Positions 55,164 to 60,824 of a stretch of 64,000 nt of DNA are shown in pieces. The notes beneath the pieces were generated by a model. That model ran no database searches, was not told where the DNA came from, and saw nothing but the letters and a program-made list of their open reading frames with translations. Positions within the stretch are counted from its first letter, which is position 1, and each line of letters opens with the position of its first letter. The position numbers and the translations under genes were made by a program. Source of the stretch: Thermoleophilia bacterium (GTDB lineage Bacteria; Actinomycetota; Thermoleophilia; Solirubrobacterales; 70-9); contig JAENWT010000013.1 of NCBI GenBank assembly GCA_016650125.1, forward strand, positions 1-64,000, read 5' to 3'.

Positions 55164-56315
55164 ATGGTCAGGCAAAGACGAAGGCGCTACACCCAAGCCG
55201 AGAGGAAGGATCTCTGGGAAAGATGGAAACGAGGTGAGTCGGCGGCAGCGATCGCCCGCGCCCTCGACCGAAAGCACGGCTCGGTCCACATCGAGCTCAA
55301 AAAGAACGGTGGCATCCCGCCGAGGGAGCGCCACCGGAGCCGGCTGGCGCTGACCCTCGATGAGCGCGAGGAGATCTCGCGGGGGATCGCCAGTGGTGAA
55401 TCGATCCGGGGTCTCGCCCGACAGCTCGGGCGGGCCCCCTCGACCGTTTCCCGGGAGATCAGCCGGAACCTTGGCCGGGTCAGCTACCGGGCAGGCGCCG
55501 CCGATCAGAGGGCTTCGGCGAGAGCCCGGAGACCGCAAGACTGCAAGCTTCGGCTGAACTCGAAACTCCGGAGGCTGGTTGCCGGAAAGCTCGAAAAAGA
55601 CTGGTCGTCGGAGCAGATCGCGGGCTTTCTCAAAGATTCCTTTCCGAACGATCAAACTATGCAGGTGTCTCACGAGACGATCTACCTGACGCTCTTCATC
55701 CAGACCCGGGGTGCACTCAAGCGGGAGCTGATCTCACATCTGAGAAGAGCCCGGGCGATGAGACGGCCGAAGGGAACCAAGAAAACCAACACCGGCCAGG
55801 GGCAGATCGTCGGAGCGGTTTCGATATCCGAGCGCCCGGCAGAAGCAGAAGACCGGGCGGTGCCCGGCCACTGGGAAGGAGACCTCCTGGCCGGCAAGGC
55901 CAACACCCACATCGCCACCCTGGTTGAGCGACACTCGAGGTTCGTGATGCTGGTGAAGCTCGACGGCAAGGACACCGAGACGGTGATCGAGGCCTTGGCC
56001 AGCCAAATGGTTGAGCTCCCCGGCGAGCTCAAGGAGTCGCTCACCTGGGACCGCGGAAGTGAGATGGCCGGCCATGCCTCGTTCACGGTGGCCACCGACC
56101 TGAAGGTCTACATCTGCGACCCGCAGAGCCCCTGGCAGCGCGGCTCGAATGAGAATACCAACGGCCTTCTTCGCCAATATTTCCCGAAAGGAACAGACCT
56201 ATCGAAGTTCACCCAAACCGAACTCGACCGGGTAGCACTCAAGTTGAACACCCGCCCGAGGAAGACCCTCGGCTTCAAGACGCCGGCCTATACGCTGGAG
56301 CGAGCGTTGCGTTGA
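55164..56315 (+). CDS. IS30-family transposase
   Basis: A 383-residue transposase. The N-terminal third has two helix-turn-helix units (RAYTQAERKDLW-like start and GLARQLGRAPSTVSREISRN). The DDE catalytic core is intact: the first Asp in GHWEGDLL, the second in LTWDRGSEMAGH, and the Glu in SNENTNGLLRQYFPKGTDLS, which is the IS30 signature. Length and motif order are normal and there is no frameshift, so it could still be active. A GGAGG ribosome binding site precedes the ATG. The stop codon lies in the right inverted repeat. Confidence 0.97.
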   Translation: MVRQRRRRYTQAERKDLWERWKRGESAAAIARALDRKHGSVHIELKKNGGIPPRERHRSRLALTLDEREEISRGIASGESIRGLARQLGRAPSTVSREISRNLGRVSYRAGAADQRASARARRPQDCKLRLNSKLRRLVAGKLEKDWSSEQIAGFLKDSFPNDQTMQVSHETIYLTLFIQTRGALKRELISHLRRARAMRRPKGTKKTNTGQGQIVGAVSISERPAEAEDRAVPGHWEGDLLAGKANTHIATLVERHSRFVMLVKLDGKDTETVIEALASQMVELPGELKESLTWDRGSEMAGHASFTVATDLKVYICDPQSPWQRGSNENTNGLLRQYFPKGTDLSKFTQTELDRVALKLNTRPRKTLGFKTPAYTLERALR

Positions 56316-56439: not shown

Positions 56440-57609
56440 CTAAGCCAGATGCTCCTTCATCCGCTCAAGGGCTTCAGTAAGCCGATCATCCGGCGTAGTA
56501 AGCGAGATTCGGAAATAGCCCTCGCCGCTTCGGCCGTACATCGAGCCTGGTGAGATGACCACGGCCGCCTCTTCGAGCACCATCTCGCAGAAGCTGGTCG
56601 AGGTGTGGCCTTCCGGCACCGGCGCCCAGACGTAGATCGTGCCTTTGGGACTGGCGACATCGACGCCGATCGCGCGAAGCGTGTCGACCACCAGGTCACG
56701 GCGTCGGGCGTAGATCGCGTTCATCTCCTCAAGCGAGTCCTGGGGACCTTCAAGCGCGGCCACGGCGGCCAGCTGGACCGATTCGAAGAGGCCGGAGTCG
56801 ACGTTGGTCTTGAGGCGCCAGTAGGTCTGGATCGCTTCGGCGTTGCCGAGGATCGCCCCGACCCGCCAGCCGGTCATGTTGTAGCCCTTCGAGAGCGAGA
56901 AGACCTCGACGCCGACCTCTTTGGCTCCCGGCGTGGCCAGGAAGCTGGGCGCTACGTAACCGTCATAGGTCGTTTCCGAATACGCGTTGTCATGTACGAC
57001 AAGGATCTCGTTCTTCCGCGCGAATTCGACGACCTGCTCGAAGAATCCGTCGGGCACGATCGCCCCGCTCGGGTTGTTCGGGTAGTTCAGGAACAGGAGG
57101 CGGGCGCGCTTGGCGGTCAGCTGGTCGATCGCGCCGAGATCCGGGGCGAAGCCGAGCTCTTCCTTCAGCGGCAGCAGCACCGCTTCGGCTCCGGCCAGGA
57201 TCGGCCCGCCGGTGTACACCGGGTAGCCCGGGTCGGAGGCCAGGGCAACGTCGCCGGGGTCGAGGAAAGCAAAGCAGAGGTTGTAGATGCACTCCTTGGC
57301 ACCGATCGCCGGGATCACTTCCGAATCGGGATCGATCGTCACGCCAAACCGGTCACGGTAGAAGTCGGAAAAAGCCTGACGGAATTCCTCGCGTCCCCGG
57401 TTGCTCGGGTACTTCTGGTTCGAGTTCTCGGCCACGGCCGCCTGCATCGCCTTGACCACGTGCGGGTAGGTCGGCATGTCGGGATCGCCGATGCCGAGGC
57501 TGATCACGTCGATGCCGGCGGCCCGCTTGTCGGAGATCTGGCGTTCCAGTTCCGCGAACTTGTAAGGGGGCATCGCTTCGAGGCGCTTGGAGGGATCGGT
57601 GAGGGCCAA
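56440..57609 (-). CDS. dapL: LL-diaminopimelate aminotransferase (DapL-type)
   Basis: PLP aminotransferase that makes LL-diaminopimelate directly from tetrahydrodipicolinate and glutamate, bypassing the succinyl or acetyl branch of lysine/peptidoglycan synthesis. The 389 residues start PPYKFAELERQI and ISLGIGDPDMP, characteristic of the DapL2-like branch, with NYPNNPSGA, the aspartate in VVHDNAYSE, the PLP lysine Lys241 in SLSKGYNMTGWR and the carboxylate arginine near the C-terminus (YFRISLTTP). Position next to dapF, in the same direction with a 16-base gap, supports this over other class I aminotransferases. Confidence 0.9.
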   Translation of the reverse strand: MALTDPSKRLEAMPPYKFAELERQISDKRAAGIDVISLGIGDPDMPTYPHVVKAMQAAVAENSNQKYPSNRGREEFRQAFSDFYRDRFGVTIDPDSEVIPAIGAKECIYNLCFAFLDPGDVALASDPGYPVYTGGPILAGAEAVLLPLKEELGFAPDLGAIDQLTAKRARLLFLNYPNNPSGAIVPDGFFEQVVEFARKNEILVVHDNAYSETTYDGYVAPSFLATPGAKEVGVEVFSLSKGYNMTGWRVGAILGNAEAIQTYWRLKTNVDSGLFESVQLAAVAALEGPQDSLEEMNAIYARRRDLVVDTLRAIGVDVASPKGTIYVWAPVPEGHTSTSFCEMVLEEAAVVISPGSMYGRSGEGYFRISLTTPDDRLTEALERMKEHLA

Positions 57610-57625: not shown

Positions 57626-58471
57626 TCAGGCGGTCAGGTCGGCCATTGCTTCGACCAGCTCCGGCGCGAGCTCGCCCGCGAGGATCGGTTCGGCCCAGCC
57701 CGTGAGCGTCACTTCGAGGTCAGGGGTTATCTCCACGAGCAGCTCTCCGCCGTCGAGCTCGACCGTGATCGGGCTCGGCGCACCGCCCAGGTATGCGGCC
57801 ACCGCCGCGCCACTGGCGCCGGTGCCGGAGGAAAGGGTCTCGCCCACGCCGCGCTCGAAGATCCGGGCCCGGACCCGTGAGCCCAATACGCGGAAGAAGG
57901 AGACGTTGGTGCGGTTCGGGAAGAGTCCGCTGTTTTCGATGTCCGGCCCGACCTTCGGCAGGTCGAGGCCTTCAATGTCGCCGCCGACTTCGATCGCGCA
58001 CTGCGGGTTGCCGACCGATACGTGCCGGAAGTCCCAGTCGCGCCCGGCCGATGACACGGTGCCGAGTCCGTCGGCGCCACCGCTCGGAAAGTCACTTGAA
58101 GTGGTCGAAGCACGACCCATGCGCACCGAGCAGGTGCGCTCGGACGTGATCTGCGGGGTGACCGGCCCCGACTCGGTCAGGATCGTGAACTCGTCGTCCT
58201 TGGTCCAGCCGTGGCGCCGCATGTAGAGCACGGCTTCCCGGGCCCCGTTACCGGACAGCTCGGCCTCGGATCCGTCGGGGTTGAAGATGCGCAGTTTGGC
58301 CACGTACGCCGGGTTATCACTACGGGAGATCAGCAGCACGCCGTCCGAGCCGACGCCGAAATGCGGATCGCAGATGCGCTGGATCCGTTGCTGGTTGAGG
58401 TCCCAGGGAAGGGCCTCTTCTTCGAGGATCACATAGTCGTTCCCAAGGGCTTGCCATTTCTCGAACTTCAT
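57626..58471 (-). CDS. dapF: Diaminopimelate epimerase homologue (DapF) with both catalytic cysteines replaced by serine
   Basis: A 281-residue protein of the DAP epimerase fold, from the ATG at 58471. Substrate-binding residues of DapF are all seen: Asn11 (GNDYVI), Asn64 in FNPDGSEAE, Asn156-type in GNPQC, Asn in NRTNVSFF and the ERGVGET block. But the first acid/base cysteine (CGNG) is Ser73 in LSGNGARE, and the second (ACGTGAC) is Ser215 in SSGTGASGAA. In characterised enzymes these two cysteines swap the proton at the LL-DAP alpha carbon. The DNA encodes TCC serine codons at both sites. Context (dapL next to it, miaA upstream) fits DapF. Either serine works here, or the protein does something else. 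Confidence 0.9.
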   Translation of the reverse strand: MKFEKWQALGNDYVILEEEALPWDLNQQRIQRICDPHFGVGSDGVLLISRSDNPAYVAKLRIFNPDGSEAELSGNGAREAVLYMRRHGWTKDDEFTILTESGPVTPQITSERTCSVRMGRASTTSSDFPSGGADGLGTVSSAGRDWDFRHVSVGNPQCAIEVGGDIEGLDLPKVGPDIENSGLFPNRTNVSFFRVLGSRVRARIFERGVGETLSSGTGASGAAVAAYLGGAPSPITVELDGGELLVEITPDLEVTLTGWAEPILAGELAPELVEAMADLTA

Positions 58472-58484
58472 GCGGCCCCGCAAG

Positions 58485-59456
58485 CTATCCGTAAGAGCGG
58501 CCCGCTGCATTTCGACCGGAATCCAAGTCGATCCGGTCGAGAATGGCCTGCGCGACTGCCTCGTCGGATCGGCCTTCCCGTTCGACGACCTCCACCCCGG
58601 CCATCCGGCGCATCCAGGTCATCTGCCGCCGGCCATAGCGCCGGTGAAGCAGCTTGACCCGGTCAAGGTCGCCTTCGAGGAACTCGGAAAACCCGATCGC
58701 CGCCCGGGCGGTACGCGACGCGTTCCCGGCGATCGCCCGTTTAACCTCGCCGGCCGCATCGCAAGCCGCCATCGCCTCAACCCTCCGGTCGATCCGCTCG
58801 ACCAGGGCATCGTCGTCGTCGACCAGGCCGAACAACAGGGTCGGTTGGCGCAGGTCGGCCGTCCAGAGCTCGCCCCCGCCCTTGTGGTCCGGCGCCGGCG
58901 CCTGGCCGTCGCGGATCAGCTCGATCGTCCGGGCGATCCGCTTGCGATCGTTCGGATGGATCGAATCCCGGAATTCCGGTGGCAGGGTCGCGTGCATTGC
59001 CTCCGGGCCGCGCTCTTCGAGTTCGCTTTCGACCTCTTTCCGCAGCGCATCAGGCACGGATGGGCGAAAATCGAGGTCGGTCAGCGCGGCGCGCAGGTAC
59101 AGGCCGGTCCCACCGACCACAATCGGTTGCCGGCCTTCGGCGAGACACCGGTCGATCTCCTGGTGGGCCCGTTCCCCGTAGCGGCCGGCGCTGAATTCCT
59201 CGTCAACCGGCACGAAACCGGTCAGCCGGTGCTCGAGGCGCGCATTCTCTTCCGCACTCGCCACCCCGCTCAGGACCTCCAGGCCGGAATAGACCTGGAT
59301 CGCGTCGCAATTGACGGCGACCGGCCGGGAGCCACGGGCGCGCAGCAGTTCGGCCAGTTCGATGACTACACCGGTCTTGCCGATCCCGGTCGGGCCGAAA
59401 ATCGCGATCACGGGCCGGGGCGATGAACCGGCGACGTCTGCCTCAGGGGCACTCAC
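58485..59456 (-). CDS. miaA: tRNA dimethylallyltransferase MiaA
   Basis: Adds a dimethylallyl group to A37 of tRNAs reading UNN codons. The 323-residue protein has the P-loop GPTGIGKT (about 21-28), the catalytic-site CDAIQVYSGLEV, and VGGTGLYLRAAL. The C-terminal GFSEFLEGD and RYGRRQMTWMRR motifs contact tRNA. The GTG start at 59456 overlaps the miaB stop by four bases (GTGA), so MiaA and MiaB, which act in sequence on the same base, are translated together. It ends 13 bases before the dapF start. Confidence 0.96.
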   Translation of the reverse strand: MSAPEADVAGSSPRPVIAIFGPTGIGKTGVVIELAELLRARGSRPVAVNCDAIQVYSGLEVLSGVASAEENARLEHRLTGFVPVDEEFSAGRYGERAHQEIDRCLAEGRQPIVVGGTGLYLRAALTDLDFRPSVPDALRKEVESELEERGPEAMHATLPPEFRDSIHPNDRKRIARTIELIRDGQAPAPDHKGGGELWTADLRQPTLLFGLVDDDDALVERIDRRVEAMAACDAAGEVKRAIAGNASRTARAAIGFSEFLEGDLDRVKLLHRRYGRRQMTWMRRMAGVEVVEREGRSDEAVAQAILDRIDLDSGRNAAGRSYG

Positions 59457-60775
59457 ACCGCGATCCTGCTGAGCAGCCTCTCTGTGCCGGTCAGGGACAG
59501 CGATGTGGCTTCGGTGATGTCGACCTCGACCAGCTGGCCGGGCAGCGCGGTTCCTTCGAAGTTCACGGCCTTGTTGTGCCGGCTGCGCCCCCGGATCCGG
59601 GTCGGATCGTTGCGGCTAGGGCCTTCGACCAGCACTTCCAGCGAGCGGCCGACGAAACGCTGGGCCTCCTCTTTGGCACGGCGCTGGACCACTTCGAGCA
59701 GGGCGGCCATGCGCTCCTTCTTGACTGGATGGGACACCTGGCCGTCCATCTCCGCAGCGAGGGTTCCCCGGCGCGGCGAATAGATGAAAGTGAAGGCGCC
59801 GTCGTAGCCGACTTCCTCCACCACCTCGAGCGTCTGGACGAAGTCTTCGTCGGTCTCGCCGGGAAAGCCGACGATGATGTCGGTGGTGATGCCGCAGTCG
59901 GGCAGCCGTTCGTGGATCATCGCGACCCGGTCCATGTAGCGCTCGCGCGTATAGGTGCGGCGCATCTTCTTGAGGATCGGGCTCGAACCGGACTGGAGCG
60001 GCAGGTGGATGTGCTCGCACAGTCCGGGCAGCTCCGCGTGGGCTTCGATCACGTCCTCGCGCATGTCCTTGGGGTGCGGACTGGTGTATCGGATGCGCTC
60101 GATGCCGTCGACCTGGTCGACCCGTCGAAGCAGGTCGGAGAATCGGATCCGGGTCTCTTTCGGCAGGTCACGCCCGTAGCTGTTGACGTTCTGTCCGAGC
60201 AGGGTCAGTTCCATGACGCCGTCGGCGGCCTGGCGCTCGGCCTCGGCGATCAGCAGGTCGGGGTCGCGGCTCTCTTCACGCCCCCGGGTGGTCGGCACGA
60301 TGCAGTAGGAGCAGGCACAGTTGCAGCCCTGTGAGATCTGGAGCCAGCCCTGGAACTGACGCTCCCGGTGTGACGGCAGGTCACCCGAGAATTCCTCGAA
60401 TTCGAAAAACCCCTGGGCGGTCAATGAGTCCGAGTTCAGGAATTCAGCCAGACGATGGATCTGCCCCGGGCCGAATGCGACGTCGACGAACGGAAACCGG
60501 CGGAACACCTCGTCCTTGACCGACTGGGCCCAGCAGCCGCCGACCCCGATGATGCGCCCGGGATCCTCGGACTTGAGCCGCTTGGCTTCACCGAGGTGGG
60601 AAATGAAACGGTTGTCCGCGTTCTCCCGGATCGAACAGGTGTTGAAGAGGATCAGGTCGGCGGCCTCACGCGTTTCGACCTCCGAGTAGCCGAGCGAGGT
60701 CAGCATGCCTTTCATGCGCTCGGAATCGTGGGCGTTCATCTGGCACCCGAAGGTGGTGACGTGGAACTTCTTCAT
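59453..60775 (-). CDS. miaB: tRNA-2-methylthio-N6-dimethylallyladenosine synthase MiaB
   Basis: Radical-SAM methylthiotransferase that adds a methylthio group to i6A37 made by MiaA. From the ATG at 60775 the 440 residues contain the MTTase domain with three cysteines (TFGCQMN, NTCSIRENA, GCWAQ), the radical-SAM cluster CNCACSYC, and a C-terminal TRAM domain (VEGPSRNDPTRIRGR region). The open frame extends upstream across the next gene but without family similarity. The stop overlaps the miaA start by four bases. Confidence 0.97.
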   Translation of the reverse strand: MKKFHVTTFGCQMNAHDSERMKGMLTSLGYSEVETREAADLILFNTCSIRENADNRFISHLGEAKRLKSEDPGRIIGVGGCWAQSVKDEVFRRFPFVDVAFGPGQIHRLAEFLNSDSLTAQGFFEFEEFSGDLPSHRERQFQGWLQISQGCNCACSYCIVPTTRGREESRDPDLLIAEAERQAADGVMELTLLGQNVNSYGRDLPKETRIRFSDLLRRVDQVDGIERIRYTSPHPKDMREDVIEAHAELPGLCEHIHLPLQSGSSPILKKMRRTYTRERYMDRVAMIHERLPDCGITTDIIVGFPGETDEDFVQTLEVVEEVGYDGAFTFIYSPRRGTLAAEMDGQVSHPVKKERMAALLEVVQRRAKEEAQRFVGRSLEVLVEGPSRNDPTRIRGRSRHNKAVNFEGTALPGQLVEVDITEATSLSLTGTERLLSRIAV

Positions 60776-60824
60776 CGGTGACGAGGTTACCGGCACCGCT
60801 GACAACGGAAGGTCGCTTCGTCGA

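Follow-up and report, generated by a model that had tools for sequence, protein, structure and literature searches.

Serine at both catalytic cysteine positions of diaminopimelate epimerase (DapF) throughout sampled Solirubrobacterales

The textbook basis of diaminopimelate (DAP) epimerases, the DapF family, is a thiolate/thiol pair of two cysteines, which is also the target of covalent inhibitors. In the Cys/Cys enzymes, the pKa of the cysteines is lowered by helix N-caps (PMC12039745), the histidine of the NPH motif and a glutamate (H147 and E197 in Chlamydia) are reported to be essential for epimerase activity (PMC5885031), and the Corynebacterium glutamicum enzyme is inactivated in H2O2 via a disulfide between both cysteines (PMC5296763). 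Natural serines at such positions have been described in the proline racemase superfamily, namely, in a Ser93/Cys 4-hydroxyproline epimerase and in a dehydratase whose base is Ser90 (PMC4113996). Here we analyze a dapF gene with serines in place of both cysteines, found in a 64,000-nucleotide stretch of DNA (below, the window) from a Thermoleophilia bacterium of the order Solirubrobacterales (assembly GCA_016650125.1, contig JAENWT010000013.1, positions 1 to 64,000). No natural Ser/Ser DapF is reported in the open-access literature searched, a scope that left most subscription papers outside.

The encoded protein is a full-length DapF homolog: it scores 192.6 bits with the NCBI DapF model TIGR00652, whose cut-off is 114.65, and is also recognized by Pfam PF01678 (DAP_epimerase). 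It does not match the PROSITE DapF signature, in which the first cysteine is obligatory, it is no member of the bifunctional DapF/glutamate racemase family NF038284 (44.9 bits, cut-off 350), and its profile matches place it outside the proline racemase superfamily. When aligned to solved DapFs, Ser73 and Ser215 fall on the two catalytic cysteines, as had been claimed in an earlier reading made from the sequence alone (the sequence-only reading). Its second claim, that the substrate-binding residues are retained, also stands: the DAP ligands N11, N64, N155, N189, E206, and R207 are all present and are invariant across Solirubrobacterales. That reading had missed a third catalytic change, Gln157 at the place of the NPH histidine, and had not mentioned the minus-strand orientation of the gene. 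Of the four catalytic residues, this lineage retains only Glu206 and has substitutions at the other three. Because the protein has neither the cysteine pair (Cys73/Cys217 type) nor the histidine of the catalytic His and Glu (H159/E208 type), we do not call it canonical and treat it as a DapF variant. The AlphaFold2 model (predicted local distance difference test score, pLDDT, 92.8) has the two-domain DapF fold, and the top Foldseek matches in the PDB are all DapF (8qzy, 9mro, and 4ijz; template modelling score, TM, about 0.85). In this model Ser73 and Ser215 sit immediately ahead of helices 74-86 and 216-228, respectively.

The close matches of the window DapF, with identity of up to 83%, come from metagenome-assembled genomes of Solirubrobacterales. 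The sequence-only reading had proposed an alignment of related DapFs as a check, and such an alignment shows the Ser/Ser pair in all 62 distinct DapFs from four families of the order, including that of Paraconexibacter antarcticus (NZ_CP098502). Serine codons at both positions are mixed (TCG, TCC, TCA, TCT, and AGC), and the dN/dS ratio (nonsynonymous to synonymous substitution rates) between the window gene and its close relatives is approximately 0.07-0.3. Sequencing error, chance, and a pseudogene are ruled out by these observations; a cysteine codon, which would have pointed to an error, was found in none of the 62 sequences. Only two of the 22 serines of the window protein, those at 73 and 215, are invariant over the order. 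This pattern is that of purifying selection keeping serine at exactly these two positions, and not that of a drifting dead enzyme.

The distribution of the variant was analyzed in 239 distinct DapF sequences covering Thermoleophilia, other Actinomycetota, and Acidobacteriota. At positions 73 and 215 they have Ser/Ser (129 sequences), Cys/Cys (93), Ser/Cys (14), or Cys/Ser (2), with one sequence unread and no residue besides Cys or Ser in the others. The Ser/Ser pair is found throughout Solirubrobacterales and the Thermoleophilia family f7, in 44 of the 56 Acidobacteriota sequences, and in two further Actinomycetota, and Ser/Cys in the Thermoleophilia family f9 and several Actinomycetota families. 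These natural half-way forms are, for Ser73/Cys215, L077, L080, L081, L083, and L086 (all f9), L159, L165, L187-L189, L191, L192, L194, and L195, and for Cys/Ser, L203 and L229. All 50 DapFs of a Bacillota control, low scorers included, have Cys/Cys and the histidine, which rules out the serines being an artefact of the method. The Ser/Ser DapF is a real, conserved, and recurrent variant, not a lone oddity. A separate observation concerns L207 (G309:C150), a Selenomonadaceae DapF match with one in-frame TGA.

A tree of 84 sequences was obtained by a quick search with columns 73 and 215 removed and has many weak deep branches; on it, parsimony requires a minimum of six changes at position 73 and seven at position 215, with no direction assigned. 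A single clade of Solirubrobacterales and the Bryobacterales-type Acidobacteriota (L055-L060) is rejected by the approximately unbiased test (p-AU 6e-5), which rules out transfer between these two groups. A joint clade of Solirubrobacterales and f7, with a single Ser/Ser origin, is not rejected (p-AU 0.44), and thus we do not claim independent Ser/Ser origins for these two. Ser191, common to Solirubrobacterales and L055-L060, was excluded as evidence since the latter were fetched by the pattern NRTNVSFF. Ten f7 loci (L112, L114-L116, L120, L123, L127-L129, and L149) encode short divergent Ser/Ser DapFs with approximately 220-230 matched residues and SG[TS]S[AS] replacing CGTGA; in many f7 loci the dapL matches are on the opposite strand.

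Loss of the cysteines goes with changes in the second shell. Position 157 is His in all Cys/Cys (93/93), Ser/Cys (14/14), and Cys/Ser (2/2) sequences, Gln in all 62 Solirubrobacterales, and Gln, Asn, or Val in 14 of the 44 Ser/Ser Acidobacteriota. At least five changes occurred at this position on a 55-row tree, and all sequences without the histidine are Ser/Ser; therefore the histidine is dispensable only after both thiols are lost, with the serines themselves invariant. We read this as a sign that the histidine serves the thiolate and that the serines carry the function. Replacement of Ala221 by Gly parallels the loss of His157 (62/62 Solirubrobacterales and 10 of the 44 Ser/Ser Acidobacteriota). 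No substitute cysteine is common to all Ser/Ser groups, Cys34 being absent from about half of f7.

The genomic context is that of a DAP pathway gene (Table 1). The gene order is miaB-miaA-dapF-dapL, with gaps of 13 bp between miaA and dapF and 16 bp between dapF and dapL, in agreement with the adjacency of dapL pointed out earlier. In the order, miaA is 5' of dapF in 62 of 62 loci and dapL is 3' of it in 50 of 62. The dapF genes of Cys/Cys relatives occupy the same slot, and therefore the Ser/Ser genes are the orthologs rather than imports. Just downstream of dapF-dapL and in the opposite direction, the window contains an IS30-type transposase gene (HTH_38 and rve domains; 55164-56315, plus strand).

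Table 1. Positions of the Ser-type dapF gene, its active-site codons, and its neighbors in the window
Feature	Position	Strand	Details
Ser-type dapF	57626..58471	minus	281 aa; ATG start at 58471
Ser73 codon	58253..58255	minus	TCC, read from DNA; position of catalytic Cys73, in NPDGSEAELSGNGAR
Ser215 codon	57827..57829	minus	TCC, read from DNA; position of catalytic Cys217 (H. influenzae DapF), in ERGVGETLSSGTGAS
Gln157 codon	58001..58003	minus	CAG; at the place of the catalytic NPH-motif His (motif here NPQ)
Glu206 codon	57854..57856	minus	Catalytic/substrate Glu of ERG, retained; Glu in 129/129 Ser/Ser and 92/93 Cys/Cys DapFs
dapL	56440..57609	minus	LL-diaminopimelate aminotransferase, downstream; NF006756, 544 bits (cut-off 507)
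miaA	58485..59456	minus	Upstream of dapF; TIGR00174, 144.6 bits (slightly below cut-off 148.65)
miaB-like gene	59453..60780 (start approximate)	minus	Upstream of miaA; open reading frame with TFGCQMNAHDSERM and CxxxCxxC motifs

A profile search found one dapF in the genome that contains the window; at 95.4% completeness of the assembly, absence of a gene from this genome alone is weak evidence. The same is seen in 40 of 41 relatives, the remaining one differing by just a short additional fragment on another contig, and a second dapF is absent from the complete P. antarcticus chromosome. Thus no second, Cys-type DapF was found in any of these genomes. The normal DapF elsewhere, which together with a lack of conservation would have refuted the sequence-only reading, was looked for here and did not appear. 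The meso-DAP dehydrogenase Ddh has no match above the cut-off in any of 61 Solirubrobacterales genomes, this one included; among 119 Acidobacteriota genomes it has such a match in one (G394), whose DapF (L220) is Cys/Cys. The decarboxylase LysA requires meso-DAP, and lysA is present in 60 of the 61 genomes of the order, including this one (a single copy, C3:22730-23953). Walls containing meso-DAP are reported for cultured Solirubrobacterales (PMC3035278, PMC10722151). Given these walls and lysA, members of the order have to make meso-DAP, and the only candidate found for this step is the Ser/Ser DapF, placed next to the LL-DAP source dapL.

Other amino acid racemases were also considered. The genome has one Alr and one member of the Asp/Glu racemase family, MurI, with both catalytic cysteines (ACNS and GCTH), which rules out a general avoidance of cysteine. 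In another Solirubrobacterales genome (L264, G028:C1:4409300-4411200), MurI has GSTHYP for GCTHYP, that is, Ser for the second catalytic cysteine, with ACNS retained. No member of this family was found at E <= 0.001 in G026, G027, G029, G033, and G036 (families f3 and f4), where D-glutamate may come from a D-amino-acid transaminase, a divergent MurI, or a broad DapF.

The window gene is a true dapF ortholog, and its product most likely is a functional epimerase that converts LL-DAP to meso-DAP by means of a Ser/Ser pair. Among the three possibilities named in the sequence-only reading, serine-based epimerization is the best supported, because the pair is conserved, under purifying selection, and recurrent, and belongs to the sole DapF of genomes with lysA, without Ddh, and from an order whose cultured members have meso-DAP walls. 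In the proposed scheme, DapL would make LL-DAP, the Ser-type DapF would invert one alpha-carbon, and the product would go to MurE for the wall and to LysA for lysine. Ser73 and Ser215, each capping the N-terminus of one of two facing helices, would act as the acid/base pair in place of the cysteines; loss of the thiols would have been accompanied by loss of the supporting histidine, with Glu206 and the substrate-binding cage retained. Since a Ser/Ser pair is unable to form the disulfide, a plausible benefit is oxidant resistance, and the presumed cost is speed. In its broadest form, the proposal is of a cofactor-independent epimerase without catalytic thiol or histidine that evolved several times from Cys/Cys ancestors via Ser/Cys or Cys/Ser steps and provides an essential wall enzyme immune to oxidation and thiol reagents; to this we give an even chance.

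Several facts weigh against a serine-based epimerase. Engineered single Cys-to-Ser replacements leave less than 0.1% of activity in PddB, as is also cited for Mt-DapF (PMC8225329), which agrees with the earlier statement that serine mutants lose activity. The NPH histidine, reported as essential (PMC5885031), is lost in the window protein, and no new conserved basic residue able to lower the serine pKa is common to all Ser/Ser groups. The meso-DAP wall data come from cultured relatives and not from the uncultured family of the window. Finally, a non-homologous DAP epimerase would be invisible to the searches used.

The last point leads to the alternative that survives best, which we nevertheless consider unlikely: meso-DAP would be made by an unrecognized non-homologous epimerase, with the Ser/Ser DapF dead or nearly so and kept for structure, regulation, or moonlighting. 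It agrees with the near inactivity of the engineered enzymes and with the replacement of three of the four catalytic residues, and a second role of DapF has a precedent in E. coli, where DapF is reported to interact directly with RppH and to regulate it (PMC4227774). A dead enzyme would be expected to have also Ala, Gly, or Thr at the catalytic sites, which is the case in none of the 239 sequences; the strict retention of Ser at 73 and 215 while other serines drift and of all substrate ligands, and the lack of a second DapF or Ddh beside the single MurI and Alr, also argue against it.

It is quite improbable that the protein catalyzes a different reaction on LL-DAP or another amino acid, for instance, elimination or racemization of another diamino acid. 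Some clusters of the proline racemase superfamily do combine serine replacements with a dehydratase activity (PMC4113996), and substrates differ among the DapF-fold racemases HisR and PddB. In the window protein, however, the ligands of both DAP ends are retained, dapL adjoins the gene, and no other source of meso-DAP was found by the searches for Ddh, Asp/Glu racemases, and Alr, so that this part of the sequence-only reading gained no support. Still more improbable is an epimerase in which a helper makes serine sufficient, such as pyridoxal phosphate (PLP), or one that uses one base plus water. Glutamate racemization by the Chlamydia DapF is reported to be PLP-dependent (PMC5885031), Ser82 is the second base of the PLP-containing serine racemase (PMC8142540), and Lys5 is invariant in Solirubrobacterales. 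The same lysine occurs in 84 of the 93 Cys/Cys DapFs, and in another family 8 of 21 Ser/Ser proteins lack it; therefore no new PLP lysine is evident. The least probable alternative is loss of the epimerase with LL-DAP used in the wall: the product of DapL is LL-DAP and some Actinomycetota have LL-DAP walls, but the reported meso-DAP walls and lysA contradict it for the order, from which the uncultured family of the window may formally differ.

A Ser/Ser DapF is carried by an entire order of soil bacteria and, apart from it, by many Acidobacteriota, and this enzyme probably can work without thiol chemistry, because cultured members of the order have its product in their walls. If so, the thiol pair would not be required for deprotonation of an unactivated amino-acid alpha-carbon, and the Ser/Ser proteins, together with the Ser/Cys and Cys/Ser intermediates, would be natural test enzymes for how weak bases manage this reaction. 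Annotation relying on catalytic residues would then wrongly label the Ser/Ser DapFs as dead.

Among known systems, MurI of the same genome is also a cofactor-independent wall racemase, with a cysteine pair and an unrelated fold class. The DapF-like racemases PddB, HisR, and CntK share the fold and are cofactor-independent, but unlike the window DapF they use two cysteines, and their single Cys-to-Ser mutants are almost inactive. Serine-containing enzymes of the proline racemase superfamily share the two-domain fold and the logic of 1,1-proton transfer, and in them natural Ser replaces the first Cys, with activity demonstrated (PMC4113996). They differ in family and substrate, and their serine stands opposite a cysteine or together with a Thr that is not catalytic; none of them is a Ser/Ser epimerase. 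In the window protein, Ser is at the general-base position of a DapF-like fold, and there it may serve in catalysis. The closest systems are the DapFs with structures from H. influenzae, E. coli, Anabaena, and C. glutamicum, which share with the window protein the fold, the substrate ligands, the genomic slot, and the position of residues 73 and 215 at helix N-caps, and from which it differs in having Ser for both acid/base cysteines and Gln for the NPH histidine.
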